From Mesodorylaimus sp. YZB2_4 (taxonomy: Eukaryota > Nematoda > Enoplea > Dorylaimida > Dorylaimidae): a stretch of DNA of 64,000 bases. The notes under the pieces are model-generated. The model had not been told where the DNA came from. It was given only the letters and a program-made list of their open reading frames with translations, and ran no database searches. Positions 3,653-25,785 of the stretch are shown here, in pieces. The stretch lies in contig JASANH010001354.1 of NCBI GenBank assembly GCA_030248295.1, positions 1 to 64,000 on the forward strand, in the 5' to 3' direction. The position numbers and the translations under genes are program-made. Within the stretch, counting starts at the first letter, position 1, and the number at the start of each line of letters is the position of its first letter.

Positions 3653-3991
3653 TCATCCTGCACGTAGAATCGGCCGTGACAATTTCCTAGCATCATTGGG
3701 GCTGTTCGAGTCGCTGCTTCGAAATTTTGTAGTAGCAGCTGATAATAAGAATTGGAATAGCTTACTATCTTCGATTTTATTATTCAAATTTGGATAATTT
3801 CCGATACGTTTCACGCCTTGTCTGTCCACCAGTGTATTCGTGAACTGGCTGCCCCACCACTGAGTTTTATCAATGGTTGGACCAAGCGCGATGATAGTAT
3901 TTCTCCCCCAAATGCTTTTTGAAGCCACATGATGTGGGAAAGTGAGATTGAAAGCAAGGATTAGGCCCGCCACGTAAAGCATGAGTCTCAT
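3653..3991 (-). CDS. Secreted amidated-peptide precursor, RPILRA-amide type 1
   Basis: This is a 112-residue single-exon precursor of a kind that yields small secreted signalling peptides. The N-terminus (MRLMLYVAGLILAFNLTF) is a clear signal peptide. A dibasic KR lies near residue 61 and RK near residue 103. The last residues are LSRPILRAG directly before the stop, so the terminal glycine is positioned to become a C-terminal amide. The neighbouring gene at 4386-4694 ends with the same RPILRAG although its codons differ, which argues for selection on the peptide. A TATA-like GCATATATGC lies at 4068-4077, 77 bases upstream of the ATG. I do not recognise a named family; the ending resembles short LRF/LRL-amide peptides with alanine in the last position. 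Coding status is likely, function inferred. Confidence 0.7.
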   Translation of the reverse strand: MRLMLYVAGLILAFNLTFPHHVASKSIWGRNTIIALGPTIDKTQWWGSQFTNTLVDRQGVKRIGNYPNLNNKIEDSKLFQFLLSAATTKFRSSDSNSPNDARKLSRPILRAG

Positions 3992-4067
3992 GGCTGTCCT
4001 GACTGTGCGAGATCAGGTTGCTGAAATGGCAATCGTTATTTCAAACTGGGTGTTGATGAAAGGGGGT

Positions 4068-4077
4068 GCATATATGC
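4068..4077 (-). promoter_or_regulatory. TATA-like element upstream of RPILRA peptide gene 1
   Basis: The palindromic GCATATATGC lies 77 bases upstream of the ATG at 3991. The spacing matches the TATA box of the next peptide gene (about 76 bases to its signal-peptide ATG). Confidence 0.45.
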
Positions 4078-4385
4078 CTACTAAATAGGGTACGGCGACT
4101 CGATCTTTGAAGCAGATAAAAAAGATAACAGGAGTGAGTTCATGATAGATGAGAACTAGCTGATTCCCACGTTTGTCTGTGACCCTGATATGCTACTCAT
4201 CTACACGCCTATTTACGCCTGCTGTGAGAAGCATCGTCCCATGTACACGTCACCTGCTTGATTTAATTTTTATTCTCCCAGTATGCATCTTCAGAAAGAA
4301 GTTTCAAGTTAAGTGAAAGGCATGATAAAAACGTGCAATGTCACGAAGACTAGCGCCTCATAAGAATAATTCGCTTAAACAAACT

Positions 4386-4694
4386 TTAACCAGCTCTTAA
4401 AATTGGTCGATCAGGTACTTTTCCTTTCTTTTTCCCACGCACTTCGCGCTTTATAGGAGAATAATTGCCGGTGGTCTGAAGTGATTCCGCGAACAACTTC
4501 TTGCTATCAATAGCTCCGTAAAATATACACCGAAAATTTAGCTTTGGAAGTTTTTCGTTCGGTTTCTTTTCATCGAGCAGTTGTGGCCAAACTTGCCTTT
4601 CTGGGCCTTCAGATGCTGTCTCTCCTGTTGGTCGACCGAAGGCGCTCAAGACAGCGAAAAGCAACCAGATTCCTAAGATCACCAATGCACGCAT
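4386..4694 (-). CDS. Secreted amidated-peptide precursor, RPILRA-amide type 2
   Basis: This precursor has 102 residues when started at the ATG that opens the signal peptide (MRALVILGIWLLFAVLSAFG). An in-frame ATG at 4739 would add 15 hydrophilic residues, but the TATA box at 4770-4777 puts the likely transcription start only a few bases before it, so 4694 is preferred. Acidic and lysine-rich spacers follow, then KR and a GKKKGK cluster, and the C-terminus VPDRPILRAG. The predicted product is an amidated VPDRPILRA or slightly longer peptide. Apart from that ending, the precursor shares almost nothing with the gene at 3653-3991, as is typical for peptide precursors. The receptor and the function are unknown. 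Confidence 0.72.
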   Translation of the reverse strand: MRALVILGIWLLFAVLSAFGRPTGETASEGPERQVWPQLLDEKKPNEKLPKLNFRCIFYGAIDSKKLFAESLQTTGNYSPIKREVRGKKKGKVPDRPILRAG

Positions 4695-4769
4695 ATTTGG
4701 GAGTAGTTCTGTAAACTGTCTCTTCCGATTAGATAGCATTGAAAATCAACAGCTCTGCTGGAGGAGGCC

Positions 4770-4777
4770 CTTTATAG
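4770..4777 (-). promoter_or_regulatory. TATA box of RPILRA peptide gene 2
   Basis: On the minus strand the sequence is CTATAAAG. It is followed about 30 bases later by the presumed transcription start, near 4742. It decides between the two in-frame ATGs of the downstream gene. Confidence 0.6.
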
Positions 4778-4789
4778 AGTATTCTGGAG

Positions 4790-6650
4790 GTACAACGACG
4801 GTTTCTGGTAGACTCGTAGTCCCATGTGTACTATAAACAGGCCTTCCATTACTATCATTTATGAACCAACCAATCACCCCACTCGTCAAAAACATGGTGG
4901 GCGGTGAGTATTCTCGAAACTTTTGTGAAAAGCGGGTGACGCAGGTAGTCAAGCAGCACAGGGTAACTTGCATAGGTAGGCGTTTAAGTGCAGGGATCAA
5001 GATACTGTATATCGTCTGGGTTTATGTCTAATGATGAGTATGCACTGACTATATCACCGCTTACAATCGCTTCCAGGAAGGTCAAGTAAACCTAAAGGGC
5101 AGATTCTAAACAAAAATTTTAATCCGAGGAAACGCAAGAAAATCTTTTGATGGTGCTCTAATGGAAGCAGCTGGAAATTTCTACAGCTACCAAATACGCT
5201 TGGCAGTCCCCTGATGCGCGGGAGTACAGTATAATATCACAGAGAATATCTTTAGGAATACTTATGATGATGCGACAGGCTCTTTGGTACATTACTTAAG
5301 AGCATTCGCTTAGTACCCTATCAGTTTTGCGTAAGAGCCCGCATATTGTGCCATCCAAGAGTATACAGTACTAGAGAGAATACCTGCAGGAGAGGTGTGA
5401 ACGCCTGGAATACTTATGTTGAGGCGAAACATGCTTTCCGTGGCGAAGGAGTCAGCTGCATACTTAGCCAGTGTGGCACAGACGCTCTGATCCGTGATTT
5501 CATGTCCAGTAGATAGTGCAGGAAAGCATGGAGCTGCATAATGCTTCATCCTGACATGACAGTGGGACCTACTTCGAGCAGGTTAAGATCGCTTCTTGTC
5601 ATAGTCACAACATACTTGTGAGTGTGCTCGAGGCTCAAGATCGAGTATTGAGTCCCGGGACTAAAGTAGATGGGAGCAAATCCCGAGATCTGAGACTAAT
5701 ATGATAGCCGTATTTACTCGTACTCGACAACATGGGATTGAGTCTCCGTTACAAGCAGTTACTGGTTTTTTCATTGGCAGATAGTATAACATTCGTCTAT
5801 TCAGCTTTATCAGTCATGTTTCAGCAAAATGCTTCATTTTCTTGTTTAATCTGGACATTTGTAGCTCTCGTTCCTCTGACTTAAGTTTTCTTGGCTTTTG
5901 AGGTCATGCGAAGCATATCGATTCGTAAGTAGCACAACAAATCTTAGCCTGAACCACGTCGTGCATGCGAGCATTTAGTTTATCCTGCTTCTCAAATAAT
6001 GCACGGCTAAAATCTCATCTGCTATGTCCTGCAGAGAGAGGGAGCTGCAATAAGGTAGCCGTGCTCCGCTTACCACTATCATTGAGTAGACACAGCACGC
6101 CTCGTTAATTTTCTGATTGATTTTATCTTGGATATGTTGATCCGGCCTTGCCTTGGGCGTAGGTGGGACAAAGAAAGCTCTGGGGAGAAGTTGTTATTGT
6201 ATATTCCAGGGTAGGATCAATACGAGAGAAACAGTCAAAAATATAAGCGAATGAAAACTATTGACCATGTACTGATACCACCAAGTATTGCATTCTGCTT
6301 TCTTTTTTCTCGCATGCTCACACACAATGTGTGAAATACTTTTTTTTGAGAAATCTCATGGATTCTCTTTGGAGCGATAAACACAGGAAAATCAAGAAAG
6401 CCGCAACTGGGTTTCGCTTGTCAAGTCAAATTCCACCACTGTTACATCGCGTCGAAAATGCCACCCACGGACTGCGCAAGTGCCTGACAGTCTTCTTGAA
6501 TCCCTAAAACCTACTCGGCAGTGGATATTTTCTGCAAAACTCGCCCACTGATCGACGTTGCTCCTACGTATGTATGTTTTCTCATTTTGTAGAGTATCTT
6601 ATGGCCTTTCCACTTGTTTCAAAGGTCATATAACTGCGGGGCTGCCTATA
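4790..6650. other. Intergenic, no gene seen
   Basis: Two minus-strand open frames of about 80 codons (4746-5000, which covers the TATA box of the neighbour, and 5310-5549) have no signal peptide, dibasic sites or family resemblance. Nothing else can be supported. Confidence 0.45.
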
Positions 6651-6659
6651 ATAGGCGAG

Positions 6660-6666
6660 TATAAAA
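6660..6666 (+). promoter_or_regulatory. TATA box of ILLRF-amide peptide gene
   Basis: TATAAAA in the context GAGTATAAAACTC, about 170 bases upstream of the signal-peptide ATG and 94 bases upstream of an earlier in-frame ATG (6754). A 5' leader intron (GTGTGT at 6758 to AG at 6830-6831) would explain the longer spacing. Confidence 0.6.
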
Positions 6667-6831
6667 CTCATTGGTGCACTATCAATAAGAGAACCCGGCC
6701 CAGCAAATCATAGTCTCTAGTCTCGCCGATACCAACCCACACTCATCGATCGAATGAGGTGTGTCTGGGCTGCAAATAACAAATTGATCTTTGGCGTTGA
6801 ACTCGTGGTCTCATTTCGTTGCGATATAAAG

Positions 6832-7227
6832 ATGGAAAAGACGGTATTCTTGTTGGCTATCTCTGCTTTTGCGTTTGAGAGCGTCTTCTCACAAAATCTT
6901 CGAATTATACCTTCATTGTCTCAAGGATATCAAAAGAAAATAGTGTGGCATGGCCGAGTACAATGGATGCAAGGTCACATGCGAAAGTACGGGCGCACTG
7001 ATACAATAAAGCCAATGGCCCTGGATACGACAGCCCAGAATGGGCAAGAGTACAGTCAACGGTCACCAAGGAAACAACATCCGAAAATTGTCCAAACCGA
7101 AAGAATGTTAGCAGTTGAGAATGACTTCGATGCTAGAGACGTCGACCAACAGCGGCAAGGCAAGAGCAGTTCATCCTCGTTGAGTAATAAGATCCTTTTG
7201 AGGTTCGGGAAAAGATCTTGGATGTGA
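6832..7227 (+). CDS. Secreted amidated-peptide precursor ending ILLRFGKR
   Basis: This 131-residue precursor starts with MEKTVFLLAISAFAFESVFS, a strong signal peptide. An in-frame ATG at 6754 would place 26 extra residues ahead of it and is probably in the leader or a leader intron. The body is rich in Gln, Arg and Lys with several basic sites. Near the end comes NKILLRFGKRSWM: glycine followed by Lys-Arg, the classical amidation and cleavage signal, which would release a peptide ending ILLRF-amide. Only SWM follows. AATAAA at 7354-7359 fits a polyadenylation site. RF-amide endings of this type occur in FMRFamide-like, short neuropeptide F and related families; I do not assign one. Confidence 0.75.
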   Translation: MEKTVFLLAISAFAFESVFSQNLRIIPSLSQGYQKKIVWHGRVQWMQGHMRKYGRTDTIKPMALDTTAQNGQEYSQRSPRKQHPKIVQTERMLAVENDFDARDVDQQRQGKSSSSSLSNKILLRFGKRSWM

Positions 7228-7507
7228 GGCATGCCAGTTTGTTTTGTAGATTCTGGTAACAGGAACCACTGTGACGGCTGGCATGAATGACGATGATCAG
7301 TACAACTCTAGTAAAACCAATCAAGTTTTGATTGCCTGCTTTCTGTTTGCAAAAATAAAATCAAAAATTATTCTTTGCATGCCAAGGACATGGTCAACGA
7401 TTAGAACTTTTAAACCTGTTTCCTAGGAGGAAGTTTACTTGATAACTGTGCGCCCTGATGGACGCAAAATGATGTACTGTAAAGGCCTCGTGAGTCCGAC
7501 CCTAATC

Positions 7508-8243
7508 GTAAGGGCCTAAATTATAGTCGGGTGCACACACACCCGTCGAAATGCGCTTTTCGAGAAAAATCGCTCGAAAGAGGCAACTCAGCGAATTTGG
7601 CGCACAGCGCCTGTTGTACGACAGGGGATCCACCAAGTATAGTTAGGTCCTTAACAGTGAGGCCCTAATCATAGTCGGCAGCCCCCCACCGTCGTACGAC
7701 AGGCGCGTTTGGGCCGAATTCGCGAAATTGCAACTTTTGGACGATTTTTCTTGAAATTTTCCGTGATAACTTAGCTGATGTCAGCGACATTTTTGTAGAA
7801 AAAAATGTGCTCTATCAAATAGATACAGTTTCGAGGCTTGATTTTTCGTTGTGGGTTTTTATCAAAGATTTTTCGTTAATTTTTGCGGTTCAAATGAAAA
7901 AAATTTGTAATAAATTTAATAAAAGCAGTAAGCGCAAAATAAAGACAACCAGTTAATAAAGCACATTTTCCTCTACAAAATTGTCACTGACATCAACTTG
8001 GGTTATCGCAAAAAAAAACGAGAAAAATGGGCCGAAAGCGGCGACGGCGCAAAAAAACGCATTTCGACAGGCGTGTGTGCACCTGACTATAATTAGGCCC
8101 TAACAAGGACCTAACTATAGTCGGTCGATCCCCTGTCGTACGACAGGCGCCAAATTCGCTGAGTTGCCTCTTTCAAGCGATTTTTCCCAAAAAACGCATT
8201 TGGACGGGTGTGTGTGCACCCGACTATAATTAGGCCCTAACAT
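7508..8243. mobile_element. Non-autonomous element with long nested terminal inverted repeats
   Basis: The left arm (about 7508-7632) and right arm (about 8114-8243) are inverted copies of each other. Both carry the AGGGCCTAA…TATAGTCGGGTGCACAC end, the ACACCCGTC…AAATGCG block, a CAGCGAATTTGGCG block and a GTACGACAGGGGATC block. Inside lies a second inverted pair: 7640-7725 with TTAGGTCCTTA, AGGCCCTAATCATAGTCGG and CGTCGTACGACAGGCG, against 8040-8110 with CTGACTATAATTAGGCCC and AAGGACCTAACTATAG. The AT-rich core encodes no protein. It is probably a foldback/MITE-type DNA transposon derivative, or one element inserted in another of the same family. Confidence 0.8.
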
Positions 8244-8249
8244 ACTGCG

Positions 8250-9040
8250 TCCTGGCGTATTAAAATGAACACGAAACAACTATCCATCTGCTTCTAGATG
8301 CACTTTAATTTAATCTGAAGAAGCTGTTATAACAGAAGAAAAACTTCTCAACTTGTTACTGCACACAGCGGCAGGATGGGTCTACTCGACCAGGCACACG
8401 TCAGGCACGCACACGTGCGGTATGCGTAAATATTTCTGCTGTTTTAACGGACCCTGCGCACGAGATGCTTTTCTTGGTGTTTCACAGACGCTAACCTAGC
8501 TTTTGCTTCTGTCTGATACTTGTTACCGGCCAATATCTGACATCTTTTTCTCGCAAGATCGATCTATCTTGAACTAAAGCTAATCGAACGGGGCGTGTAC
8601 CGAAGCTGACCACACAGGAAGCACGAACGCAAGTGCTGCCTTTGCCTATTTGCGATGACCCTAACTTTCCGCACGGACGCATTACTGTATGACGCGACAC
8701 TGGCATAAAAAGTGAAGCTTAACGATGTTGACGAGTAGAGTTTCTATTTTTCTTAAGTCCGACTTCAAACCCAAATTGCCCTATATTTTTCTTATTCGTG
8801 GCAACTATGTGGGCAGCGCATTTTGCAAAGCTTCGCATCCAGGCCTGATGTAGATTTCTAGCACCAGAAACTAAGTGGGCGATCGCATGACATCAGGGAT
8901 TTCTATAATCTAATCGCACTTATTGTTAGATTAGGGGTAGCTCGGTGATGACGACGCTGAAAGTCAATTACGTTATTCCATTTATGGACGAGGGGCATAA
9001 GACTTCGATGGCTGGCTCACGCTTTCACCTGTTCGTAGAG
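8250..9040. other. Intergenic, no gene seen
   Basis: There are no open frames with supporting features. A degenerate AT-rich motif CTAAATAAATAGC at about 9047-9059 may serve the gene starting at 9121. Confidence 0.4.
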
Positions 9041-9120
9041 AGTTAACTAAATAAATAGCGCCGGATTAACCACCTTTTCTTCTTTCCTTCAACGGCTCAT
9101 CACGGACAAGCGACCAAAAA

Positions 9121-9481
9121 ATGGATACTTTGCCCCCTTTGCTAATTCTACTCTTTGCAATCTCTAGCCAAGTGTCCGCCTACTTAATTGCATCGACCCC
9201 GGGCGATCATCGTTTCGAGTCGAAATTAAGCTTGCAATCGTTGTTCAAGAGAGATCCGTTCTTTTTGCCCTCAAAATTTCTTGACTCATGACAGTCGCCG
9301 AGTCAACGTCGATCACAAAGAGCCAGTACGCTTGCCGTCTATGTTCATTTTTCAGGAGACCTGGAAGATACAGAGGCCATCTTTGGTCAAGAGACACAAG
9401 GAGCAGCAGCAGCAAGAACAGCAGCAACAATCGACCCGACCGTATCGCCCAAGCCGGTATATAATCCGTGTACAAGGATAG
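9121..9481 (+). CDS. Probable two-exon secreted peptide precursor ending in IIRVQG
   Basis: The ATG at 9121 opens a clear signal peptide (MDTLPPLLILLFAISSQVSA). Unspliced, the frame stops at 9291 after 56 codons. A second open frame ends at 9481 with RPSRYIIRVQG, a terminal glycine like the other precursors here, after a KR site and a Gln-rich stretch. A 76-base intron (9219-9294) with a pyrimidine-rich acceptor ending GACAG joins the two frames exactly, giving 94 residues. The donor (GTCGAA) is weak, so the splice is a proposal. AATAAA at 9529-9534 lies just past the second frame and supports one transcript covering both. The alternative is a 56-residue unspliced product containing KRDPFFLPSKFLDS. 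Confidence 0.55.
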
Positions 9482-9667
9482 ACGATAGACCACTCTAAAG
9501 AAACATCTGCGACAAACGTAAGATAATTAATAAAGCTTTGGTGCAGCAAGGTGCTCTACACCAACATGCTGTGTATGTTAAATGATATGATCGTGAAAGT
9601 AAATGCATTTGTTTTCCTGCATTTGCATTTCAATGTTTGCCCATGTTCTTGTTCCATGCCAGTCGAC

Positions 9668-9838
9668 GGTGGACTTGTGTGGAAATCAGAACTCCGCGTG
9701 GTTCCAGATATTTCCGCGTTTAATTGTAGTGGATCCACGTCACCATGGAATCCACGTGGAAGTGCGTGACTCCATGTGGTTCCAGGTCAATAGCCGCGGT
9801 GGATCCACTGTGGGCTTCCTGTGGATCCATGCTAGAAT
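9668..9838. repeat. Degenerate GTGGATCCACG-rich short repeat
   Basis: Variants of GTGGATCCACG, TCCACGTGG, CCATGTGGTTCCA and GTGGATCC recur about eight times, partly palindromic. The block is non-coding and looks like a decayed minisatellite or a local expansion of palindromic words. Confidence 0.55.
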
Positions 9839-9849
9839 ATCATAGATCG

Positions 9850-11190
9850 AGACGGAATCATTCTGATAGATGAGTTAACTTCAAAATTTCTATCATGTCG
9901 TCATTTGTAACTTTTAAAGCAAGAATGAGAGAGAGATGCTCAAACACTCGTCGACCTAATGCGCACCAGCACCACACTGTTGTCAAAAAAGAGGTGGTGT
10001 TGGACCAAGAGTTTGTCTTGAAAGAACAAAACTGACTCTCTTTCATTCGCCATGTAAATATGCTATTGTCACCGTGTAGCACACGGAAAATCAGCATTAA
10101 GTTTATAGGTACTTATTCTAAAGTGATTATTGGCTTCTCAAAAGCCACTTCGCAAATTAACGACTCTTTCGAGTAGTTTATCTCAATATGTTGCACATCA
10201 AATTCCTGAACAGGCTGTGCGCAATAGCCATGTTCATGTACTGCCCTATCACCCAGTCGCCCCCATAGTGGAGAGCTGTGTTTTGGGCAATGTCTAAATG
10301 TCGCGAGTGACACTCTATCTTTTGTGTTGCTTGAAGCCTTTCGCGAAGTTTTATTTTTTAAAAAGGTGCTAACATTTTTAGTAAAAATTTTTCAGTTTGC
10401 AGGTCGTACAGGACAGTGACTAGCAGTCAAGAGTCAAGAGACAACATCCCTCTCAGAAAGGGCTGATGAAGTGGAAGAATCACACTGGGCAACAACAAGT
10501 AGCCTACTTCGTCACTGTCACATCGACCACTTGTCCAGAAACATATTTGTCCGGTGGCCACCAGGACAAGAGGGTGAAGTCAAGCTATGTTATTGGATTA
10601 TTACTGAGAGCAACTCGCGCACGCTTCTATGTAAGTTGGTCAGTATTACCGGAGGGACCAGTGGACTTTTACACCACCACAAAAACCTCGAGCAGCCAAC
10701 CAAGTCTTTCGGTCGAGTCTGTGCCTGAAACATAACTCTGACGGGAGATCTCTGCCAGTTTTGTTGAGCGGTCTGTTGCAGGCGGATTCCTGACAATCAT
10801 TCGAGGTCCAAGCAGACAGAACATCGCGCATTCATATTGCCTCATTGGCTACAAAACTAATCATCCCATCGCAAGGCAAACCCATACACCTCCGCTACAC
10901 CATCGTACGTTAGCTCATTATCTTTTTCGCTTATCTTTTTGCTGAATTTGAACACCCGATACTGCAAGAGGGTACGAATACGAGAGTACGCCATAGGCAC
11001 AACAAAACGTTGCCGGTCATAAAATGTTCCCTTTATGACTAAAAATTCGAAGGATAATCGAGTCCCATTAGGTCATCGTAACCCCTTCACATGTCCCCTT
11101 GATTAAGGCCCCCTCTGACAGACCTTATTGCAGGACAAAAAGATTCTTCAATTCAGAAACCTCGAAACAGAACTGATCGAAAGTGAACCT
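9850..11190. other. Intergenic, no gene seen
   Basis: Overlapping frames at 10466-10735 are open on both strands but have no signal peptide, domain or splice signals, and are not supported as genes. Confidence 0.4.
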
Positions 11191-11203
11191 TATTTTACGG
11201 TTT

Positions 11204-11467: not shown

Positions 11468-11889
11468 GCTAATATGTTTATGCAGCAGTGCCTTCGATGT
11501 CCGATCGTAAACTGTCGGATGGGATTTCTACAAAGATCGGCTTACTCATATCTACATAGGCCCTGCTTCGTTGTGGACCTAACTTTATGGACCGTTGAGC
11601 TCTACGATTATGTCAAGGGAGTCAGTGAACCGTGCTTCGTGGGCGAAATAACGAAATTTTCCATCGGAACAGTACTTAAATCATAGATGTGGGCTTCGTG
11701 TAATCCCAATACGCGTCATCAGGGACGACGACGGTGCCAACAGAACGAAGAGAAAGGGACCATAAATGGGTCCGTAACTCCTCTTCGACAGACTTCGCCT
11801 AAGTTCGCCTTTGGAGAAGGGTCATAGCAAAATTTGGTCGGCAGTTTGGGCGCTTTGCACTGATAAGGCTCTTGAGCACACGATAAGAT

Positions 11890-12306
11890 ATGGCTGTCTA
11901 CACGAAATTGGCAGTGGCCATATGCCTGGTACTCTGCGCACAACTGGTGGCCGCTTTGCCTAGCGTCGATCCCGAACTGCTACACGCCCGGCTAACATTG
12001 AAGGAATGGGACGAGGTCATGAAACAAGCACAAGAAGAAGCTCATTCTAAAAGTAAGGAAAGCGATTCGGCAGGTGGACAAGCATCGAGTGGGGAGAACA
12101 TGAACCAGCAAGCTCCACTCAATGAGGTCAAAGAAAATGGCGACGAGAAACGCAAGGGCAAGGCTGGTCGTCTCTTGCCAGCTCTTATTCCGCCCATGTC
12201 CAAGGACGCCAGAGGTCCAACAATGTCCCTGAGCCAATATCTACGTTTGTCTCCTTTCATCAAACGAGCCATGCAGACCAATCGGCAGCCGTTGCGTTTT
12301 GGATAA
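11890..12306 (+). CDS. Secreted amidated-peptide precursor, QPLRF-amide type 1
   Basis: This 138-residue single-exon precursor has a signal peptide at residues 1-22 (MAVYTKLAVAICLVLCAQLV AA). A hydrophilic, Glu/Lys/Ser-rich spacer with KR follows, then a conserved C-terminal module: SLSQYLRLSPFIKR and AMQTNRQPLRFG. Cleavage after the KR (residues 125-126) and amidation of the last glycine would give a peptide ending QPLRF-amide. The module recurs in the next gene (13080-13496), indicating tandem duplication with constraint restricted to the C-terminus. AATAAA at 12411-12416. The PLRF-amide ending resembles nematode FLP-21-like (…RPLRF-amide) and short neuropeptide F-like peptides; the assignment is by ending only. 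Confidence 0.82.
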   Translation: MAVYTKLAVAICLVLCAQLVAALPSVDPELLHARLTLKEWDEVMKQAQEEAHSKSKESDSAGGQASSGENMNQQAPLNEVKENGDEKRKGKAGRLLPALIPPMSKDARGPTMSLSQYLRLSPFIKRAMQTNRQPLRFG

Positions 12307-13079: not shown

Positions 13080-13496
13080 ATGCCTCGCCAATATGACTTG
13101 TGCAAGATGCCTTTTGCCTGGCTGCTGCCCCTCGTCTTTCTAGCGGCGGAAGTTTCGGGTCTCACTCACCAGATCCGATCTATTAGGCTAATCACCGTTG
13201 CTCGTCAATCGGAAAAGCTCAATCCGCATCGGTCAGAAGACCCCCAGCAATGGCTATCGATCCTGGAAGAGGCTTTGGCAAAAGAAGACGATAGAGACGA
13301 AGATGTCGATCAGCCATCAGCCGTCAACGAGGGCGAACTTTTGGTTGATAATGCCAGTGATCGATATTTTCAATCCCGAAACTCTGAGCGAGCCAAGACT
13401 TTACGCTATCTATCCTTATCGGATTACTTGAAGAAGTCGTTGTTCATCAAACGAGCCATGATGATGATGGACAAACAGCCATTAAGATTTGGTTAA
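13080..13496 (+). CDS. Secreted amidated-peptide precursor, QPLRF-amide type 2
   Basis: This 138-residue precursor is the same length as its upstream neighbour. Two ATGs are in frame; the second (13107, CKMPFAWLLPLVFLAAEVSG) directly precedes the hydrophobic core and may be the true start. An acidic spacer (DDRDEDVDQ) is followed by SLSDYLKKSLFIKR and the terminal AMMMMDKQPLRFG. FIKRAM and QPLRFG are shared with the gene at 11890-12306, while the spacers are unrelated. The predicted product is AMMMMDKQPLRF-amide. The run of four methionines (ATGATGATGATG) suggests replication slippage inside the mature peptide, outside the conserved ending. Confidence 0.82.
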   Translation: MPRQYDLCKMPFAWLLPLVFLAAEVSGLTHQIRSIRLITVARQSEKLNPHRSEDPQQWLSILEEALAKEDDRDEDVDQPSAVNEGELLVDNASDRYFQSRNSERAKTLRYLSLSDYLKKSLFIKRAMMMMDKQPLRFG

Positions 13497-14596: not shown

Positions 14597-15037
14597 ATGG
14601 CGGCTTCGTCTTTTATTGTTTCCGTGCTTTGTGTACTCTGTATGGCGATTCTAGGAAAGGCGGAATTACTTGAGAGGCAGGCGCGTCATATGAACGACAT
14701 GAACGCCATGATTGATTTATTACAGTTGGCCAATTTGGAAACCGCGGAAGACGAGGATCCAAAACCTGAAGCTGGAAACGCTGAGTGGCTTACGGAGGCC
14801 TTGCCAACCATTTATTACCAAGTAAGTCGACCCAACCACATCAAACGTACACTGAGAAGCGATCTCGATCAAAGAAAGTTCATCTTGAGACGACTGATGG
14901 AAGTTTATAAAGTGATGCGCCGTGTGGCTAGATCATCACCATCGAGTCAGAATGTCGAGCCACAAAGACGTCAAAGCCGTTGGTGGTGGCCGGCTGTTGT
15001 TCAGCCAGTAAACAGAGATCCCATCAGATTAGGATAG
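14597..15037 (+). CDS. Secreted amidated-peptide precursor ending DPIRLG
   Basis: This 146-residue single-exon precursor has a signal peptide at residues 1-22 (MAASSFIVSVLCVLCMAILG KA). The spacer is acidic in its middle (AEDEDPKPE). Basic sites include KR, RR (twice) and a final RR at about residues 124-125, after which comes QSRWWWPAVVQPV and the ending NRDPIRLG. The terminal glycine directly before the stop implies an amidated DPIRL ending. The three consecutive tryptophans are unusual. A TATA box is 62 bases upstream. The P-[IL]-(L)-R-hydrophobic-G ending relates it to the RPILRAG and QPLRFG precursors nearby; a common ancestor is inferred, not shown. Confidence 0.78.
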   Translation: MAASSFIVSVLCVLCMAILGKAELLERQARHMNDMNAMIDLLQLANLETAEDEDPKPEAGNAEWLTEALPTIYYQVSRPNHIKRTLRSDLDQRKFILRRLMEVYKVMRRVARSSPSSQNVEPQRRQSRWWWPAVVQPVNRDPIRLG

Positions 15038-15508: not shown

Positions 15509-15751
15509 ATGTTACAGCAAAAATTTCTTTTTCTCTTGGTCTTGGTCGCATTCCTTTCGTCGTCGATGATGGGCCAAGAGCCGCCATCGACGTCGATTTT
15601 GCTTCCATTCGAACGCGATGAACGCGGTGGGGCCAGAGCGGCGGGAGGATCATTGAGGAGACCAGCTCACTGGCAAGGCAAGCGAGAACTAGAAATCTAC
15701 AGAAGAAATTGGAATGCTTATCGATCGATGTTTGATATGGCAGACGAATGA
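15509..15751 (+). CDS. Small secreted peptide precursor with HWQGKR site
   Basis: This 80-residue frame starts with the signal peptide MLQQKFLFLLVLVAFLSSSM. An acidic-basic spacer includes LRRPAHWQGKR: RR, then PAHWQ followed by Gly-Lys-Arg, the standard amidation and cleavage signal, predicting a very short PAHWQ-amide. A C-terminal ELEIYRRNWNAYRSMFDMADE tail remains, with another RR. Unlike most of its neighbours, the putative peptide is internal rather than terminal. ATTAAA at 15813-15818 may act in polyadenylation. I do not recognise the family. An 11-base-upstream out-of-frame ATG could reduce translation. Confidence 0.65.
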   Translation: MLQQKFLFLLVLVAFLSSSMMGQEPPSTSILLPFERDERGGARAAGGSLRRPAHWQGKRELEIYRRNWNAYRSMFDMADE

Positions 15752-16780: not shown

Positions 16781-16787
16781 TGCAAAA

Positions 16788-18911
16788 ATGGCCGTATCGA
16801 TTGGTTTGATGGAATATTTGAGTGTCTTGCTTTTACTGCCTAGTCGTCCTGCCGGTAGTGCAACAGCAAGCGTGCCGATACCGTTAGGCCCATGCGAAGA
16901 ACTGGTCAGAGAAGTCAAAAGAAAAATCGAAAATGGAGAAGTGGACTTATTTTATCCAACGTGTACTAAGGAAGGTATTCAGTATATTAGCACATTTTCA
17001 CCCATTTGCTGAAAATCCTTCCTTCTTACCTCGGGGACAGACGGGATCTGGGTCAAACAATTGGTTCACAGTTCGACCCAACCTCGACATCAGCCTGTCA
17101 CCGATCTGGGAGTTTCAGCTCTAGGCCACGATAACATCTAGCCTTATCTCTAGCTAATCCTCACTGTGTGCACCGCCATTTTTCTACCCCATATTTTTGA
17201 AAAAATTGACTAACTTCCTCCCCCCCCCCCCCACACAAAAAATCTCTTTTGTTCGGTGAAGTACTCGTATATTAACAGTATGACACACATTTCTGCGCGA
17301 ATGCTATCATTTTTTACTATGCGACCTGAGGGGAAAGCAATCTTGGCATGGTGGCTTTACTCGAATGTCTTCCCTGAGAGAGAAGTTGGGAGGTTGGTAA
17401 GAGTCTCAACTTGCCTCCCTAGGGCACATGTTAGGCGCACATAACTCTGAAAGTTGACCTTACGATGAACACATTTTTGAGCCATTAATTGAATCTTGCC
17501 CCACTCGCATCTTCATCTACCTTCAGAAAGATCCGTAGGGATACCTGAAGGAACTTATCTAAGAAGTGATAAAGTGGGATGAGCTAATCTGACTGCACCT
17601 GCAGAGTCGGCTTTTGGACTTCTTCAAAAACAACCTGCGCCCTGAGGTGTCCTGCTCATATCTCAACGACCACTCCCTTTTCGAGCAGCAAGTTTCAAAT
17701 AACATGACCCAGCTGAGGGACCATTTGCAGCAGGGCCTTTAAAATCTTACAAGCCCTGTTCTCGAACGAGGAGATGCTGGTCTCCAGTCATCATCTTCAC
17801 CCGCCAATTGAGCCGCGGTGGTTCGCGTCAGTGGTCAGTGCACTCGCGCGCACAGGATTTCGAGGTCGTAGGGGCCAACAAAAAAATTTGAATAAATCTT
17901 CTACATGTAACTTAGAGCTCAAGGATGCGCACCCATCGCCCAAATGCGAGTGGGTACGCCGCCCCGATAAAGGCAAAAAATTTTTGCAAAATTGACCTCT
18001 CGCAGACATAATTTCTCATTAGTCTATGAATAAATGTGCAAAAAAACCCCCATTTGAAGGCAAGAAATCACTCTTTTAAGCCAAGCCAACAATCTGCCAA
18101 AAAGCGAGAGGCTTCTTCATGAATTCTGACCGACCAAACTTTTGAACTTCTAAAATTAGGACCTGGCTGACCTGATCTTTGACTGCGAGTCGACAAAAGA
18201 TCAGATCAGGTCGATATTATGTGCTGACACACGATTTCTTCCCTTCCCCCTTCCCGGGAATATACAGTACTCGTACAGTACACTAAGTGAGGGACTATGA
18301 TATTTCAAAGGGGCCCGACCCAGGGTTAGCGAGGGGTGGCTACATTGTTGGAGCACACATTGAGGTTCAGCTAGAGATAAGGCTATCTGTTATCTTGGTC
18401 TCGAGCTGAAACTTGTCCAGTTCGATGACATGTTTATGTCGAGGCCCCAAATCCAGGGTACTTTTGACGTCGCGCAACACTCGAAAAAAGGACATTGGTG
18501 CGCTAATCCTTTGAATGGTCAAAAAGTTAATGGTACCTTTAAAAGACACAATGACAAACTGGAATGTGGTGGTGAGATCATTTTTTTGCGTGCGCACACT
18601 TGTTATCCCAAACTCCTTTCTTTCTCAGATTGCCACAAGGAACTAGCAAAGTTGTTGAAAAGGATTCATCCAACGGATTACGTATTACCAAAGTGCGATG
18701 ACAGAGGTGGCTCGTACACACACAAACACAACATTCTGTTATTATCGCTGTTATTTTTTCTTTAGGCATGTTCTTGTTGAACAAAACTGATGGGCACGCA
18801 CGTGAAATTGAATATGACAGCAGTGCCGTCGTCCCAGTTCCAGCAGGGTGGAAGTTTGTTCTTCTTGGAATAATCGCATTGGTTCCGATTCCTGAAAACA
18901 GCATCTTTTGA
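16788..18911 (+). CDS. Thyroglobulin type-1-like secreted protein, four exons
   Basis: Exons: 16788-16974, 18457-18571, 18629-18706, 18766-18911. Exon 1 gives a signal peptide, then PCEELVREVKRKIENGE and FYPTCTKEG, the first half of a thyroglobulin type-1 repeat. Exon 2 supplies TFDVAQHSKKGHWCAN, NGQKVNGTF and LECGG, the second half. Exon 3 (DCHKELAKLLKRIHP … LPKCDDRG) starts a second repeat, and exon 4 ends with a hydrophobic stretch (AGWKFVLLGIIALVPI). Introns follow the repeat at phase 1 (GAAG|GT, GGTG|GT, AGAG|GT). Odd points: the Cys pair expected at QCH and CWC is absent in repeat 1, and the exon 1/exon 2 joint is one base out of frame with the visible GT-AG sites. It may be a pseudogene, a sequencing slip or a missed exon. 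Such repeats often inhibit cysteine proteases or bind other proteins. Confidence 0.6.
17013..18400. other. Long first intron of the thyroglobulin-type gene
   Basis: A C13 run lies at about 17220-17232. Near 17595-17745 a 47-codon stretch (SRLLDFFKNNLRPEVSC…) vaguely resembles retroelement gag but is too short to call. No exon that would repair the phase of the gene is visible. Confidence 0.3.
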
Positions 18912-18919
18912 TTAGCTAT

Positions 18920-19730
18920 TGGACCATAGAAAAAGGAGGAAAAGTTTCACAAAACGTTGACACCTATTGATGTCATCTGGGTAGATCTAGTGCTTTTTTA
19001 TGGTCGGATTTAGTTTCTGATTTTTTACTTCTTTCTGGAAGTTCTTGGCGCGCTCTTGGTAAGGTGGATTACTGGGAGGGGATCATACTATAGCTTTGGT
19101 ATGATAACGAATATATACAATAAAGAGGGGCCATGTATATGCTGTATACGTGCGCGGTAGAAGCCTCGTTCGGTAGGCGCTGCTCGCTTACAGCTGTCTC
19201 GACCAATGACAGAACGGACAAGAGATCTGGACGGCCGCGCGGGGAGGTGGAGACTGTACTTGCTCGACGAAATCGCCAGTCGTCCTCGCTGCTGGTTTGG
19301 TACTGTACAGAAAATATACGTGATTGCACGTGATTGCAACGCTGTGCGACCATGGCAATGCCTCTGATAGTGATAAAACTCTCTCAGATACCCTTCTAAT
19401 TTCCAGCGAGCTCCCGCTCTTAGCATTCCTTACCTAGATCTTTATGTATGCGCCTTTACACATACTGTAGACCCTTAAAGCCGTCCAGGGAGTCGCACTG
19501 CCGTGTCGCCTAGGGGCTCGCTGAATGCTGTCGGTGCCACCATCGCTGGCTTCAGTTACGGACTCCCTTGTTTATTCTTCTACTAGGCCCTCTCACACCG
19601 ATCTGCCTAATCCTTTCCTCTATCTGACAGGACCTGCATATTGCATCTGGGATCCCCATATCTGAACGTATCCTTCGTTACATGGGAAGCGCGTGGTCAC
19701 GCCTTCTGGAAAGGATGTTATGGGCACAGA
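18920..19730. other. Intergenic, no gene seen
   Basis: Open frames on both strands at 19069-19426 overlap each other and lack supporting features. Confidence 0.4.
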
Positions 19731-19734
19731 TTAT

Positions 19735-20070
19735 GAACCACTCTGCCTTGGGTCAGGCGCAAGACAGGAACGAGATCAAGGCCGAGTGACTGGTTTGATT
19801 TGCCAGCATCGGTTGAGGACTGGTCTTGAGTTCCTGGTCTGAACTGCTTTGTGAGCACTTACAGTAGGTCCCAGGTCCGCATGAACCCCATTCCCGGCCG
19901 ACACGTGCGGGCGACGTCCCACGCGGAATGATAGTCTATATAGTCCCTGTGATGCAGCGTACAATAAGCTTATCACGCGGGGTCGCAGACTACGTTAAAT
20001 CGTTCCTCCCTTAAGCCAATCTATGCTTAGCCCTAGCTTGTCCTAGGGCGAGCAAAGGATTTCATAAGCC
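19735..20070 (+). repeat. Dispersed repeat, copy 1
   Basis: It shares with 43975-44330 the blocks GAGTGACTGGTTTG/AAGTGACTGGGTTGG, a TTGCCAGCATCGGTTG/TTGCAGACATTGGTGC region, GAGTTCCTGGTCT/GAGTTTTTGGTCT and CGACACGTGCGG/CAACACGTGCGG, then a shared AAAGGATTTCAT-type end. Strongly diverged, with no coding capacity. Confidence 0.5.
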
Positions 20071-20124
20071 CCCATCCCTTCATACGAGTACAGTATTTTA
20101 CTCATTACCCAAGAAAATGCAAGC

Positions 20125-20945
20125 ACTCTGGGGTACGAAACCGAAGACTATGGGGACGAATTTGCGGAAAGAACGTCATCCACATTTCGTCCCCCGCGAT
20201 TTGTTCCCCCAAATTTGCCCCCCCCCCCACAGTCCGTCCCTGAGAAGTTTCGTACACGAAAGTTTCGTCCCTATACCATTCGTCCCCAAAAAAGTCACAG
20301 TCGTAAATGTTGTGCTCAATCTAGGCACAATCATACTGTAGGTTGTGTGAATAAAACTGATAGTTAAGGGATGGTGAAAATGCACGTTTATGCACGCGAC
20401 GATTGAAGGATGTTTTTGAAGGATGTGATCATTACGGACCATGATGGTGGCCTGAGGCGGCGGTTTATCGCTACTGTACATACAATGTTTAGAAAACTCA
20501 CTTTTCAGCTGAAAATGTTTTACGTGTGCACATGTTTTTATCGCTATCCAAGCAAAGTGCGGGAAGTACTATGATTCAATAAAATAAAATGCTCAACAAA
20601 TAAAATGCTTACCTTGGTTTTTGTGATTTCAGAAAACGCTGCACCTTCCTCCCACCCAGATTCACTCAGGAAAAAACGAGCTTAAAAAGTTAAAAAAAGC
20701 TTGTTTGATGCATTCTCTTGGTTCAGTGCTCTGGACCACGACTGTTCCGTAGAGTACAATAGACTTGTTCGAAAAGCGCTGGTGCCATGCTGAAGTCCCA
20801 TCGGCGAATAACGACGATCAGTGTTACGCCATTATGACCTGTCGTGATTCCTGATCTCTAAACTCTGTGTTGAGCTCTCAATATTTGATGTGGGGACGGG
20901 TGTGAGGGGGCAAAATGTGGGGGACAAACTTTCCGTATCCTGTGG
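20125..20945. mobile_element. TTCGTCCC-ended inverted-repeat element, copy 1
   Basis: Repeated TTCGTCCC/GGGACGAA words crowd the left end (20150-20295), and GGGGACGGG…GGGGGACAAACTTTCC forms the right end (20890-20935). The core 20600-20890 (CACCTTCCTCCCACCCAG, CATCGGCGAATAACGA…) is homologous, in reverse orientation, to 32990-33240. It is likely a non-autonomous element. A C11 run sits at 20218-20228. Confidence 0.6.
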
Positions 20946-20949
20946 TGTG

Positions 20950-21790
20950 ACAGATGTTTCATGCATTTTTACAAGGAAGCTTCAGCCTTAAAGCACAGAT
21001 GAGCAGGGCTTTTTGACCCCCCCCCCCCCCCCTGTGGCGCAAATACTTCATTAAGGTTGCCTAAAAATAGTCGTCGGTCGTTCGGGATACTAAAAAATGG
21101 TCGTTCGGGATACTTTTTTGCGTCTCCAACGTTCAAAAACTGGGAGATATCCTCTCGCACAATTTTCACCCCTACCTAAAATTGCCCCTCTAGGGTCAAA
21201 TCGTTTGTACATCATTTTAACGCCCTCAAAACTTATTTCTGGTTTATATATTCCATAGCACGGGGTGTGTTTGACCATGATCCGCGATGAGCCACAATCG
21301 AGTCATGCAGAAAAGCATACAAATGACCTGAAGCCTGCAGAAATTGCTGATACCACCATGCGCAGGCTCGAGAGGCAAAAATACTATGTATAGACTATAA
21401 AAAATATATCCTGACTCAAGCTTCTCCGCGCCGTTTCGTTTCCCCCGTCCGTCGGCCAAGCATCAAGGCATAGAGAATGAGCGGATAGGTTTGTTCTATA
21501 CGGTATGTACGAGTAAATACTGGATACTCTTTCACTTTTTGAGTATGCGAAGGCTAACTCTCCATGGACCAGTGGGCTGTTATCCTCTTACCACCCCTCC
21601 TCTGGCAATGAAAGAACTGGATAAGTATTGACCACTTCGCTATACTAAATTGGCTTCTCAATCCCCGTGCGCGGTATTGTTGAAATTGAAAGACTTGGAG
21701 ATACGGTCGCTTAGGGAGTGTAAAAGACACCGTTTCCACTTGATTAAGCTTCTGGTTTCCTTAATGGACTTTGCACAATGAGTCGCTTAC
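20950..21790. other. Intergenic with C16 homopolymer
   Basis: C16 at 21017-21032. No gene is supported. Confidence 0.4.
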
Positions 21791-21812
21791 CGTCGGCACA
21801 ATCGATTTCTGA

Positions 21813-21820
21813 GATAAAAG
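21813..21820 (+). promoter_or_regulatory. TATA-like GATAAAAG of PNLFG peptide gene
   Basis: It lies 81 bases upstream of the ATG at 21894, with spacing similar to the other peptide genes. Confidence 0.4.
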
Positions 21821-21893
21821 CTCACTCATTCTGTCTTGTCTCAGCTCTGAGAAAAGAGTGACTGAAGAGTGCCTCGACAATCGTATCAAGAAA

Positions 21894-22154
21894 ATGAATT
21901 ACAATATTTCCTCTCTGATTATACTTTCTATATTTCTGGTGGGATTGGTTTCTGAAACATCGGCTGAAGATACACTCAGAATTTCGTCGTCGCAAGCATC
22001 TCGCCAAAGATGGCTTTCTCGAAAATGGATGGAGAAACCAAACTTGTTCGGCAGAGAACGCCGTTACTGGCACGTCTTGGATTTGGAATCTGCAAAACCA
22101 GTCATTAGTTCGATGACGAATGAAGAAATAGCAGTAAAGAAAATGACTCCCTGA
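21894..22154 (+). CDS. Small secreted peptide precursor with PNLFG-RERR site
   Basis: This 86-residue precursor starts at the ATG for MNYNISSLIILSIFLVGLVS, a clear signal peptide. An open extension upstream begins only with a non-ATG codon. The body contains SRKWMEKPNLFGRERR: glycine followed by an arginine-rich site, predicting a WMEKPNLF-amide or shorter PNLF-amide. The tail RYWHVLDLESAKPV… ends KKMTP. AATAAA is at 22291-22296. As with the HWQGKR gene, the candidate peptide is internal. The family is not recognised. Confidence 0.62.
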   Translation: MNYNISSLIILSIFLVGLVSETSAEDTLRISSSQASRQRWLSRKWMEKPNLFGRERRYWHVLDLESAKPVISSMTNEEIAVKKMTP

Positions 22155-22299
22155 AAAAATTGGAGTAGACCTATGTAAGCAAACTGGTTATCATGTTGTC
22201 ATCTCAAGGCAATGAGCTGACATACTTCCTACTGCTAAAAACCCAGGAAAACTTATAGATGCTTTAAGTGATTGTGAGACAGCGCTATTAAATAAATAA

Positions 22300-23175
22300 G
22301 GATCAATCCGCTACACGGGAGCCAACTTCTTTTTGCATCACTTTGCGGCAACCATCATTCAAACAGACAAAGAGTAAAAATGTTGTATGAGTTTAGACAT
22401 ATGGGAGTTATGCATGCATGCATGCTATATGTACGTACATACTAAAAATATGTCTGCCGTGACTAAAAACATTTTACTAAACAGTAGCTTTACTCTTCCA
22501 TAAGCACATGAGGGCTGGCCACGAATTGGCGTAATATCCTTGCAGCGTTTCCACGAGAGGTAAGGAGTCATGAATCTACAGTACTAGCTGACTCCTAGGG
22601 CGCAGTAACCGTGCATTGTGTGATGGGAACGGTCCAAATGGCCCCGCCACAAGAATCTAACACAGGCTACTGTTATTCTACTTGCTTGGCGTAGTTGTTC
22701 TGCGCCAAGCAAGACCTTGATCTTTGAAAAAATGAGAATATTGACGGTGCAAAAGCCAAGAGCGGACGCATTTCAAGCTGATTTCTTCTCGGAGTGCCCA
22801 ATGACTGAGCTTGTTTACCTATGACTAAGCTTGTTCTATATTTATGTTTGTTTTTATTTACGTATACAGTATCCCATTGTAACCCATCCTAAATATTGCA
22901 CTTGCTGCTACCTGAATCATGCCTGAGAAGCAAAGTATGGAGACACGCACTTTTATCAGGGACTGACAACTATTTATATGGTTTAGCCAGTCTACCAATT
23001 TTATTTGCAAAGGAAGGTATTCTGGCTCTTGAATAACGGCCATGGCAATGATAGCCCTCCACGGCCAACGGGCTCGCAAGCTTGTTGAAGACAGAAGGCA
23101 CCACATGGGTGCTTGACCTTACTTTTTTATAATGAAACATTATTTTCCTACACATATCTGGAACTAATAATGGGT
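22300..23175. other. Intergenic, no gene seen
   Basis: It contains an ATGCATGC simple repeat near 22420-22432 and nothing coding. Confidence 0.4.
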
Positions 23176-23179
23176 TTTT

Positions 23180-23335
23180 AAGACGGCAGCTTAGTAAGCC
23201 CGCTATCAGACAGGGAACTGGTCTTCGACGGCGATTTAGTAAGTCCGTCGCTGGCCCTGCACACCTGCCTCTGGACGACATCAAGTGGCGTTCCATCGAG
23301 GGCTGCCCTCGGTCCGTGGGTGCCAGTCTGCCGGG
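23180..23335 (+). mobile_element. SINE fragment
   Basis: TTTAGTAAGTCCGTCGCTGG, CCTGCACACCTG and CTCTGGACGAC match the reverse complement of the SINE in the TTC30 intron (near 60040-60095). It is a truncated, plus-oriented piece. Confidence 0.6.
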
Positions 23336-23735
23336 CGCAGGAAAATTGTCCTAAATCTGGAGGAAGTTTAAGCTGCCAAGGCAGGCTTTAGGGTAATGAC
23401 GTTTCTTGGGCAATCTGAGATTTTCAGGGCAGTTTTAGGGCCCATCTTTAGATATTGGCACTTTGTCTTAGCTTTCTCGACAATGCCGTTGCTCCAAAGG
23501 TTGTTTCCGTGATGAGAAGCTATGTAGAGATCTCGACGAAGCATTGGAAGCTTTTGGCGCCTTTGAATACTGAAATGGTATTCGGATGCGCCATCATGAC
23601 TTGCTTAGAATGTTGTTAGGTGTCTAGGAAGCAGTTTTTTCAAAGGGCCTTCTTTGCATTTTTTTCTGTAAGCTGGGTTTTAGGGCAATCTGAACCCGCA
23701 TCACCTGGATGCAGACCTGGAAACACGGCAACACG
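23330..23735 (+). repeat. CGGTTC-element core, copy 1
   Basis: It is parallel to 26600-27010 and 62990-63370: AATTGTCCTAAATCTGG, TCTGAGATTTTCAGGGC, CTCGACAATGCCGTTGCT, ATGATGAGAAGCT, TTTGGCGCCTTTGA, TTGTTAGGTGTCT and GCAGACCTGG appear in the same order. This copy lacks the CGGTTC-rich flanks. Confidence 0.75.
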
Positions 23736-23739
23736 GGGT

Positions 23740-25400
23740 GCTCTTACCGTTAGTGCTGTCGTCAGAGGGAACCTACCGTGATAGCTGGTCGTCCGTCTCA
23801 CGGCATCGCTTATCATATCGCGACTGCTGGCTGGCTGTAGGAGAACAGGTTCGAAGTCCTTGTTAAGGGACACAAAATACAAGCAGCTTATCATACGTAA
23901 GTCTGCAAAGTACTGTAAATGCTCAAGCCATATTCCAGAAAAATTTTTTCACACGAGGATGAGGGAAAGCATTTGAGGGTAATTAAACCTTGCACACAAT
24001 TTGGCGTACAAGTTTAATAAAACACGTGTTTTTATTCTAAAATACATGAATCTCATGTCCTGCGAGTCCCTTGGCAGAACACTGAATTCACACAAGCATT
24101 TTCTTGCCGTCTCCACTATCGCAGGACAAAGGGGGGGGGGGGGGGGGTGAGCCAAAAAGGCTCTGGTGGGGAAATTATTTGGGGAGAAAAGTAGAACTAT
24201 TGATGGCAAATTTGCAAATTATGCAATGATCGACAAAGGCATTTTACAAAAATTGCCCATGATCAGCAATACACGACCATACCGAGTACTTATTAACTTT
24301 TAGCGCTTAGATTGGTTTTGAGAAATTGAAATGTTTCGTACGATAAAGCTTTATCTACGTAAAGCAAACTGGTGCTCCCTTTTTTTGTCGTAGAAAGCGT
24401 CTTAAATTGTTCCAGTTTTATAAATCTTTTTTTGGATTTCATGACTATCCGAACAGATTTTTGTACACAAATCTGATAGTGAGTCTGGTGCCCGAACAAG
24501 TGCTAGATTGAATGACCCACATTCTTTGACCGTGCCTCATAATTTCGAGAGTTATAAGCAATATTTTAATTACTCGTGCATTCAGATGTGGAATGATTTA
24601 TCGCCTGATGTTGCTTCGTTGCCTCGGTGAGGTTTTCGTAACGCCATCGAAAAGATTGGTTTTGCTTGACTCTACCTGCTTTGTTTTATATTGAGATGTC
24701 GCTTATCCGTTGAGTGCACAGTCATGTGTTTGGGTAAGCAGTAAAATAGCAATAGCAACCATTCGCTTTCTACCCTAATGCTGTACTGCTGTTCCGTCTG
24801 CACAGTATGCACAGTAAGATAAATCTCGTGTGGTGATAACACCGTCCTTGGAAGCAGCCTGACACGCGATTTGTCATGTCGGTTTTTCAATCACCCCTTT
24901 GAGCGGGTTTCGCAGCAACAAGCAAAATATTGATAGTCCATCAGGGTTTTTTCCTATTCTAGATTTGGAACAGTCGCGCTTGGGTGGGGACTAGAGCAAC
25001 GTTCTCACTCAATTGAGCGAAGCTAATCCCATGCGGGTGAGTCCATCGGTTGGTGATACTGTGTTCGAGAATTTGAAGACGCCAGGAAAACATGACGCTG
25101 ACAAGCACGCCCATGCATTTTCCATCAAAACGCCTTTCCCATGCACTCTACTAACTCGTGTCCACGCACCATAACAACGTATGAATTAATGAAAAGGCGC
25201 GTGATGGCTAGCGAAGGTACAGGCATATGGAGATTCCCGGTCAACTAAATTCTATTTTCGACGAAATTAGATTACGAGGTTGGTTGAAGCGTTTGAGGTT
25301 AACAAGAAATTTTTTCTTCAGTTCTCCCTCGAGCAACGACTGAGCACAATATAACCCTCTCCTCGACTCCCTGCCATCAGTCGGCTAGCACGAATCAAGC
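23740..25400. other. Intergenic with G17 homopolymer
   Basis: G17 at 24131-24147 is a possible quadruplex or slippage site. No gene is supported. Confidence 0.4.
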
Positions 25401-25425
25401 GCTGATTTCACTTCTCCTTTACGAT

Positions 25426-25432
25426 TATATAT
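25426..25432 (+). promoter_or_regulatory. TATA box of QMLRV-amide peptide gene
   Basis: TATATAT, 39 bases before the ATG at 25465, implies a very short leader. Confidence 0.55.
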
Positions 25433-25464
25433 CCGAGCTCTGTATCTTCATTCTCTCCACAAAT

Positions 25465-25785
25465 ATGAAGATTGGGTTTCTCTGCGCGCTTTCTGTAGCT
25501 TTTTTATTTTCACAATTTTCGGAAGCTTGGAACAACGATGCCGATAATGCCATCTTTCTGCCAGCTATAAAACGGCGATATAATCCGAGAAAATCTACTG
25601 GCGGCGTGACAGCGTGGAGGGTCATATCCAGATATCGCCGCTACTACGAGCCCCAAGATGTCTACTCGAACGAAGAAGACGGAGCAGACTCGCCGTACGT
25701 GTTCAATGAAGTTCGAAAAAGATCGGAGAATCGGTCACTGATGGGTGCTTTGAAGAAACACCGGCAAATGCTCCGAGTTGGATAA
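25465..25785 (+). CDS. Secreted amidated-peptide precursor ending QMLRVG
   Basis: This 106-residue single-exon precursor has a signal peptide at residues 1-21 (MKIGFLCALSVAFLFSQFSE A). Basic sites include KRR, RYRR, RKR and a KK close to the end. The C-terminus is SENRSLMGALKKHRQMLRVG, directly before the stop, so cleavage at KK and amidation would give HRQMLRV-amide, or a longer peptide if only RKR is used. A TATA box lies 39 bases upstream and AATAAA at 25857-25862. The ending fits the local pattern (hydrophobic pair, Arg, hydrophobic, Gly). It is the last recognisable member of the array before the repeat-rich zone. Confidence 0.77.
   Translation: MKIGFLCALSVAFLFSQFSEAWNNDADNAIFLPAIKRRYNPRKSTGGVTAWRVISRYRRYYEPQDVYSNEEDGADSPYVFNEVRKRSENRSLMGALKKHRQMLRVG

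Follow-up and report, generated by a model that had tools for sequence, protein, structure and literature searches.

The question raised by this locus is whether a run of small, apparently secretory open reading frames (ORFs) is a true array of amidated-peptide genes and, if so, whether its members form one expanding family, as a preliminary description of this DNA had proposed. The locus lies in a window of 64,000 bases (bases 1-64000 of the 127 kb contig C265, in a genome of 145 Mb and 1067 contigs), where ten genes, A1 to A10, make up array A at window 3001-26400 (23.4 kb). We found that the array is real, that the C-termini are constrained in the groups that could be tested (QPLRFG and RPILR), and that a second array, B, with eight genes (B1 to B8), lies at 352-365 kb of contig C6. 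At a probability of about 78%, we read this as a nematode gene cluster for precursors of the neuropeptide type, which would have arisen by local duplication and, at least in part, been block-copied. Judged from sequence, it is an old and probably block-duplicated cluster of single-peptide precursors that look FLP-like or NLP-like.

Precursor genes and their predicted peptides

The seven precursors on which the preliminary description was built are all complete ORFs, placed as it had placed them and with the endings that it had read. Two lie on the minus strand. A1 (3653..3991) has a signal peptide, an RK site and a predicted C-terminal LSRPILRA-amide (end RPILRAG), and A2 (4386..4739, likely start 4694, with a TATAAA lying 37 nt ahead of the start at 4739) would end in RPILRA-amide. 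The other five are on the plus strand. A3 (6754..7227, likely start 6832) ends in ILLRFG-KR, with TATAAA at -94 and AATAAA 126 nt past the stop. A5 (11890..12306, AATAAA 104 nt past the stop) and A6 (13080..13496), which are homologous to each other and to B5 and B6, end in QPLRFG and would release AMQTNRQPLRF-amide and AMMMMDKQPLRF-amide, each after KR. A7 (14597..15037, TATAAA at -62) ends in DPIRLG and would release QSRWWWPAVVQPVNRDPIRL-amide after RR, and A10 (25465..25785, TATATA at -39 and AATAAA 71 nt past the stop) ends in QMLRVG and would release HRQMLRV-amide after KK. Of three further genes that had been proposed to share this build, the small plus-strand precursors A8 (the HWQGKR gene, 15509..15751; RR-PAHWQ-amide, then GKR) and A9 (the NLFGRERR gene, 21894..22154; RK-WMEKPNLF-amide, then GR) are each one single ORF as well. 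For the third, the IIRVQG gene A4 (9121..9481, plus strand), the signal peptide and the C-terminal end are both present, but they stand in two differing frames. Nine of the ten genes are single coding exons, A4 being the exception, and the claim of one main peptide per gene is true within the window. An inverted-repeat element lies between A3 and A4 (7519-8231), its arms of 85 and 46 nt being 94% and 91% complementary and 543 and 452 nt apart.

The second array was located by tblastn with A6, which matched C6:359605-359910 at E = 1.2e-13 and, more weakly, C6:359221-359301 (E 0.18) and A5 (E 0.22). On its minus strand are B1 (C6:352341-352739), with an RPILRGG end and an inner peptide KLRFG-KR, B2 (C6:354400-354699; VKLRFG) and B6 (C6:359599-360009; QPLRFG-K). 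On the plus strand are B3 (C6:355968-356306; YVIRFG), B4 (C6:358067-358390; YLVRVG-R), B5 (C6:359035-359304; QPLRFG), B7 (C6:363817-364212; TMYSIG) and B8 (C6:364918-365169), a small secreted ORF with PLFG.

Each of the nine single-exon genes of the window would join a signal peptide and a fast-evolving spacer to one peptide, which is usually C-terminal and would be cut free at a basic site (in most cases dibasic) and amidated at its glycine. We infer that the products are secreted and that the genes are expressed in neurons. Signal peptides are predicted from a simple score of the hydrophobic N-terminus, which is weak for B3. A dibasic site that would release a peptide of 5-30 aa is present in 17 of 19 peptide entries (16 of them supplied as C-terminal fragments, and B8 omitted), the exceptions being A3 and the second B1 peptide. 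RFG followed by a stop or by basic residues occurs in A3, A5, A6, the B1 inner peptide, B2, B3, B5 and B6, so that predicted RFamides make up 8 of 18 peptides over both arrays, B8 not being counted. A1, A2, A4, A7-A10, B4, B7 and the second B1 peptide lack this ending and are therefore not assigned to flp. On their C-termini the RFamides appear FLP-like, and the remaining R-x-amides and others NLP-like. The C-terminal PLRFamide of the flp-21/flp-15 subfamily is predicted for the QPLRFG genes A5, A6, B5 and B6.

The genes are short and have no database domain, as ORFs arising by chance in non-coding DNA would be. This explanation can be set against counts of secretory ORFs of at least 60 aa ending in [hydrophobic or P]-R-[hydrophobic or G]-G. 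There are six of these in window 3001-26400, four in C6:352001-365500 and none in 254,100 control bases of the same genome. The control regions, a non-random choice, were window 26401 onward with contig C265 to 94 kb, C6:320001-352000 and 365501-400000, plus the 30 kb surrounding each of four further receptor loci. In dinucleotide shuffles (100 for each array) the mean was 0.01 for array A and 0.00 for array B. Among the listed genes the six of array A can only be A1, A2, A5, A6, A7 and A10, since the ILLRFGKR, HWQGKR, NLFGRERR and IIRVQG genes fall outside this strict pattern. When the signal filter was dropped and any residue was allowed before R, the counts were six for array A, five for array B and one for the control. 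The clustering is thus far beyond chance. Additionally, the two RPILRAG motifs differ by synonymous changes only, and the A6 search found a paralogue at the E-value given above. For the genes with QPLRFG and RPILRxG this refutes the chance-ORF reading, which we consider very improbable for the arrays as a whole.

The idea that each gene has its own promoter could be sustained in part. TATA-like elements precede 6 of 18 genes against a background of 11% (binomial p 0.012; 5 of 10 in array A, 1 of 8 in array B), and polyA-like signals follow 11 of 18 against a background of 23% (p 0.0006; 8 of 10 and 3 of 8). This enrichment, together with the mixed strands of the genes, supports separate transcription as predicted from the sequence, although both enrichments are moderate, the TATA statistics are modest and the signal comes mainly from array A.

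Homology and constraint within and between the arrays

Pairwise tests were made on 18 precursors (153 pairs) with the first 20 residues removed and A4 excluded, and significance was taken from shuffles. A p below 0.01 was reached by 13 of the 153 pairs, where about 1.5 are expected, and six of the 13 fall within the QPLRFG quartet (A5, A6, B5, B6). The quartet is homologous, with p from 1e-15 to 7e-4 across its six pairs and 12 invariant alignment columns, ten of which are KRAM and QPLRFG. A6 is closest to B6 (p=1.4e-15; score 171, where A5-A6 reaches 83), a relation that a tandem pair predating the copying could explain. Among the RPILR genes the alignment is confined to the C-terminus (p=0.006 for A1-B1, 0.016 for A1-A2 and 0.028 for A2-B1). 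RPILRxG followed by a stop occurs genome-wide only in A1, A2 and B1, these being three of six pattern matches, of which the other three read TGG.

The third group carries PSRY. The C-terminal frame of A4 (open to 9478) aligns with B4 at p=4.5e-5 through LPS[ML]F[IL]FQ and PSRY[IL][IV]RV, while its signal-peptide frame aligns best with another part of B4 (p=1.8e-3); A4 thus reads as a disrupted or finely spliced relative of B4. An intron in A4 ending at TTTTTCAG is unlikely, because LPSMFIFQ spans that junction and has its counterpart in the LPSLFLFQ of B4; the frame break may come from a frame shift, from an error of assembly or from a tiny intron farther upstream. A third relative, on the minus strand of C424 (4371-4694), ends in FIKFGPSRYVVRIG-R and matches B4 at E 1.4e-7. 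As a fourth shared group the xLFG pair is doubtful: A9 and B8 match weakly (p=6e-4), and the alignment leaves their LFG motifs apart.

The predicted mature peptides are conserved in two of these groups. Six of the seven RPILRAG codons are different in A1 and A2, and all seven residues are the same. In the quartet, KRAM and QPLRFG read identically in all four members, and six of their ten codons (those for R, A, P, L, R and G) vary synonymously. This codon comparison, made between paralogues, speaks for constraint on the QPLRFG and RPILR C-termini and so bears in favour of the proposal on the test (dN/dS near 1 across relatives) that the preliminary description had named as speaking against it. 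The proposed drift of the last residue among Ala, Phe, Leu and Val is not supported as it stands. Endings are nearly fixed inside homologous groups (RF in 4/4 of the QPLRFG genes, RA or RG in 3/3 of the RPILR genes, and RV, RI or RVQ in the PSRY trio), and since the last residue barely changes within groups, drift is not directly seen.

The second, partly matching array points to the copying of a block of peptide genes, followed by diversification; the cluster itself would have originated through local duplication, with some part of it, or more, probably block-copied. The order RPILR - PSRY - QPLRFG is identical in both arrays, with RPILR on minus and PSRY on plus in each, and with A5, A6 and B5 all on plus. 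The principal rival here is that unrelated peptide genes were gathered by chance or by shared regulation, their R-x-amide ends being convergent. Most pro-regions are indeed unalignable, as the small number of significant pairs and the share of the quartet among them indicate, and A7, A8 and A10 lack a convincing relative in the genome. Among the genome-wide protein searches (made with A6, B4, A7, A8 and A10; RPILRxG was searched as a pattern), A7 matched only itself, and the best other matches of A8 and A10 had E-values of 0.13 and 6. Against such a gathering stand the sharing of QPLRFG, RPILRxG and PSRY genes between the arrays, the two copies each of QPLRFG and RPILRxG in array A, the common order, and the empty 254 kb control. 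We judge it unlikely, if still deserving of serious weight. The proposal of one expanding family finds partial support, within the three homologous groups, and does not extend to the remaining pairs, which are at or near chance level, or to A7, A8 and A10.

Several observations weigh against a copied cluster of single-peptide genes, and they should be considered together. Beyond the three homologous groups (the QPLRFG quartet and the trios with PSRY and RPILR), pairwise precursor similarity is at or near chance, and because most member pairs lack detectable homology, a common origin of the whole array is something we infer. A5 and B5 both score highest with B6 (103 and 85) and only 55 with each other, so there is no clean pairing and gene conversion is possible. 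B6 is on the minus strand, unlike A5, A6 and B5. With only three groups clearly common to both arrays, the chance of the same order is one in three, orientation ignored. In the comparison of the A and B flanks beyond the peptide genes, only short repeat-like matches were seen among the best 40 rows; apart from the QPLRFG genes, several segments matched the same places, as repeats do, and none of the genes in the flanks gives clear evidence of a block duplication. The individual genes are also imperfect: A3 has no dibasic site close upstream of its peptide, B1 encodes two peptides, the signal peptide of B3 is weak by score, and the FG of B8 has no basic residue after it. The signal-peptide ORF of A4 (9121-9291) and its C-terminal frame are different frames, and A4 was not among the tblastn matches of B4 at E<=10. 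Finally, Pfam gave no domain in the 12 precursors searched.

Neighbouring receptor genes and the defence-product alternative

Beside array A, five receptor genes of the Srsx/rhodopsin type, three of them checked in Pfam, each occupy one open frame, at window 36695-37666(-), 40412-41386(-), 46237-47238(+), 49087-50070(+) and 55459-56391(+). A receptor fragment with a stop lies at 44910-45146. The genome holds at least 120 Srsx matches (122 of 447 candidates were scored), and those listed include large clusters on C37 and C21. On a speculative reading taken up below, some of the neighbouring expanded receptors might be receptors for the array peptides. A linked peptide-receptor locus was considered as the principal explanation and for now set aside, as no Srsx match on C6 appears among the 120 listed and the strict peptide pattern was found zero times around four other close Srsx relatives.

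The receptor genes next to array A also count in favour of a further alternative, that the products are exocrine or defence peptides (antimicrobial or pheromone-like) and not neuropeptides. Small, fast-evolving, clustered secretory genes are typical of defence peptides too. The basic cleavage sites, the amidation glycines and the conserved end that a receptor would read suit neuropeptides better. The lack of C6 Srsx genes among the listed matches and of strict-pattern ORFs at the four other receptor loci likewise counts against defence products, as do two ORFs of at least 200 aa at C6:340-380 kb, which are not Srsx-like by eye. We regard this alternative as improbable and retain the neuropeptide-type reading.

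A looser scan of about 14-15 kb on each side of the other receptor loci gave two ORFs on C351, one on C146 and none on C68, with no likely precursor among them. On C59 it gave five, one of which (73258-73551) is a candidate precursor: a secretory ORF ending KR-VGYGIAGRPPVRG, possibly an amidated-peptide gene, with a close Srsx relative about 12 kb away. Farther along the window, a TPR-repeat frame at 58192-58467 (E 6e-9), perhaps with another at 60257-60565 (E 0.04), is presumably the ciliary gene TTC30/dyf-1.

Relation to known peptide systems

The genome is a nematode's: the N-terminal domain of nematode cuticle collagen is matched 133 times, and a cox1 copy reads under code 5. That mitochondrial cox1 lies at C73:251445-254668, together with a frame that we take to be nad4-like and with another cox1 piece nearby in opposite orientation; cox1 fragments with stops on other contigs resemble nuclear copies. 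No copy of the canonical C. elegans SL1 leader was found genome-wide within 2 mismatches, which we take to point away from Rhabditida and plectids. Thymidylate synthase gave close scores with the solved structures that we take to be from C. elegans (4iqb, 161.6 bits) and Trichinella (5m4z, 157.8 bits), too close to tell these apart, and higher ones with chains that we take to be human.

The closest known peptides share a C-terminal motif. Of these, flp-21 encodes GLGPRPLRFamide and flp-15 encodes GGPQGPLRFamide and RGPSGPLRFamide; both activate NPR-3, and FLP-21 also NPR-1 (PMC4196577). They have the PLRFG C-terminus in common with the QPLRFG genes, and flp-21 is likewise single-copy. They differ in that here there are four QPLRFG genes in two arrays, among neighbours with other end residues. 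QPLRFamide would act on the kind of FLP-type receptor that reads the flp-15/flp-21 PLRFamides in C. elegans.

For clustering, the precedent is flp-2/flp-3/flp-28, which lie in a glutamate synthase intron and are thought to come from gene duplication (PMC11658156; PMC4405611). These too are clustered divergent FLP genes. They are three, all RFamide and within a host gene, whereas here there are about 10 plus about 8 genes, not all RFamide, and a second related array. The contrast that had been drawn with most known peptide genes, as holding many copies in one precursor, was overstated: according to a survey, nine nematode flp genes always encode one peptide (PMC11658156). Multi-copy genes of the flp-14 type (KHEYLRFG/KNEYLRFG repeats) are present outside the arrays, on C25 and C393, so the arrays add to the classical layout and do not replace it. 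Precedents thus exist both for flp genes with a single peptide and, in one case, for a cluster of three flp genes, and what is unusual here is the size of the cluster, the second array and the mostly single coding exons. Literature text searches with the QPLRF, RPILR and QMLRV strings returned nothing related by title, and among the titles and abstract openings on clustered or tandem neuropeptide genes no such array was described.

A more speculative reading, which we hold tentatively and think unlikely, is that the arrays are the remains of an ancient peptide-birth locus, in which repeated local duplication of one ancestor gave rise to RFamide, RVamide/RIamide, RA/RGamide and RLamide peptides before the block was copied. 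This may place such a locus in a nematode possibly of the early-branching lineages thought to be poor in flp genes and receptors. A survey that took in over 100 species of nematode reports a mean of 3.9 flp genes for clade 2; it cannot separate loss in clade 2 from later gain in the crown clades and calls for clades 1-5 genomes (PMC11658156). The ancestor of Dorylaimia is inferred in another study to have had one or at most two NPR-type receptors, with Enoplea missing from the data (PMC11315170). If the worm does belong to these early-branching lineages, the question of flp loss versus gain becomes directly testable with two arrays, and the arrays offer a physical picture of the possible birth of new peptide families.

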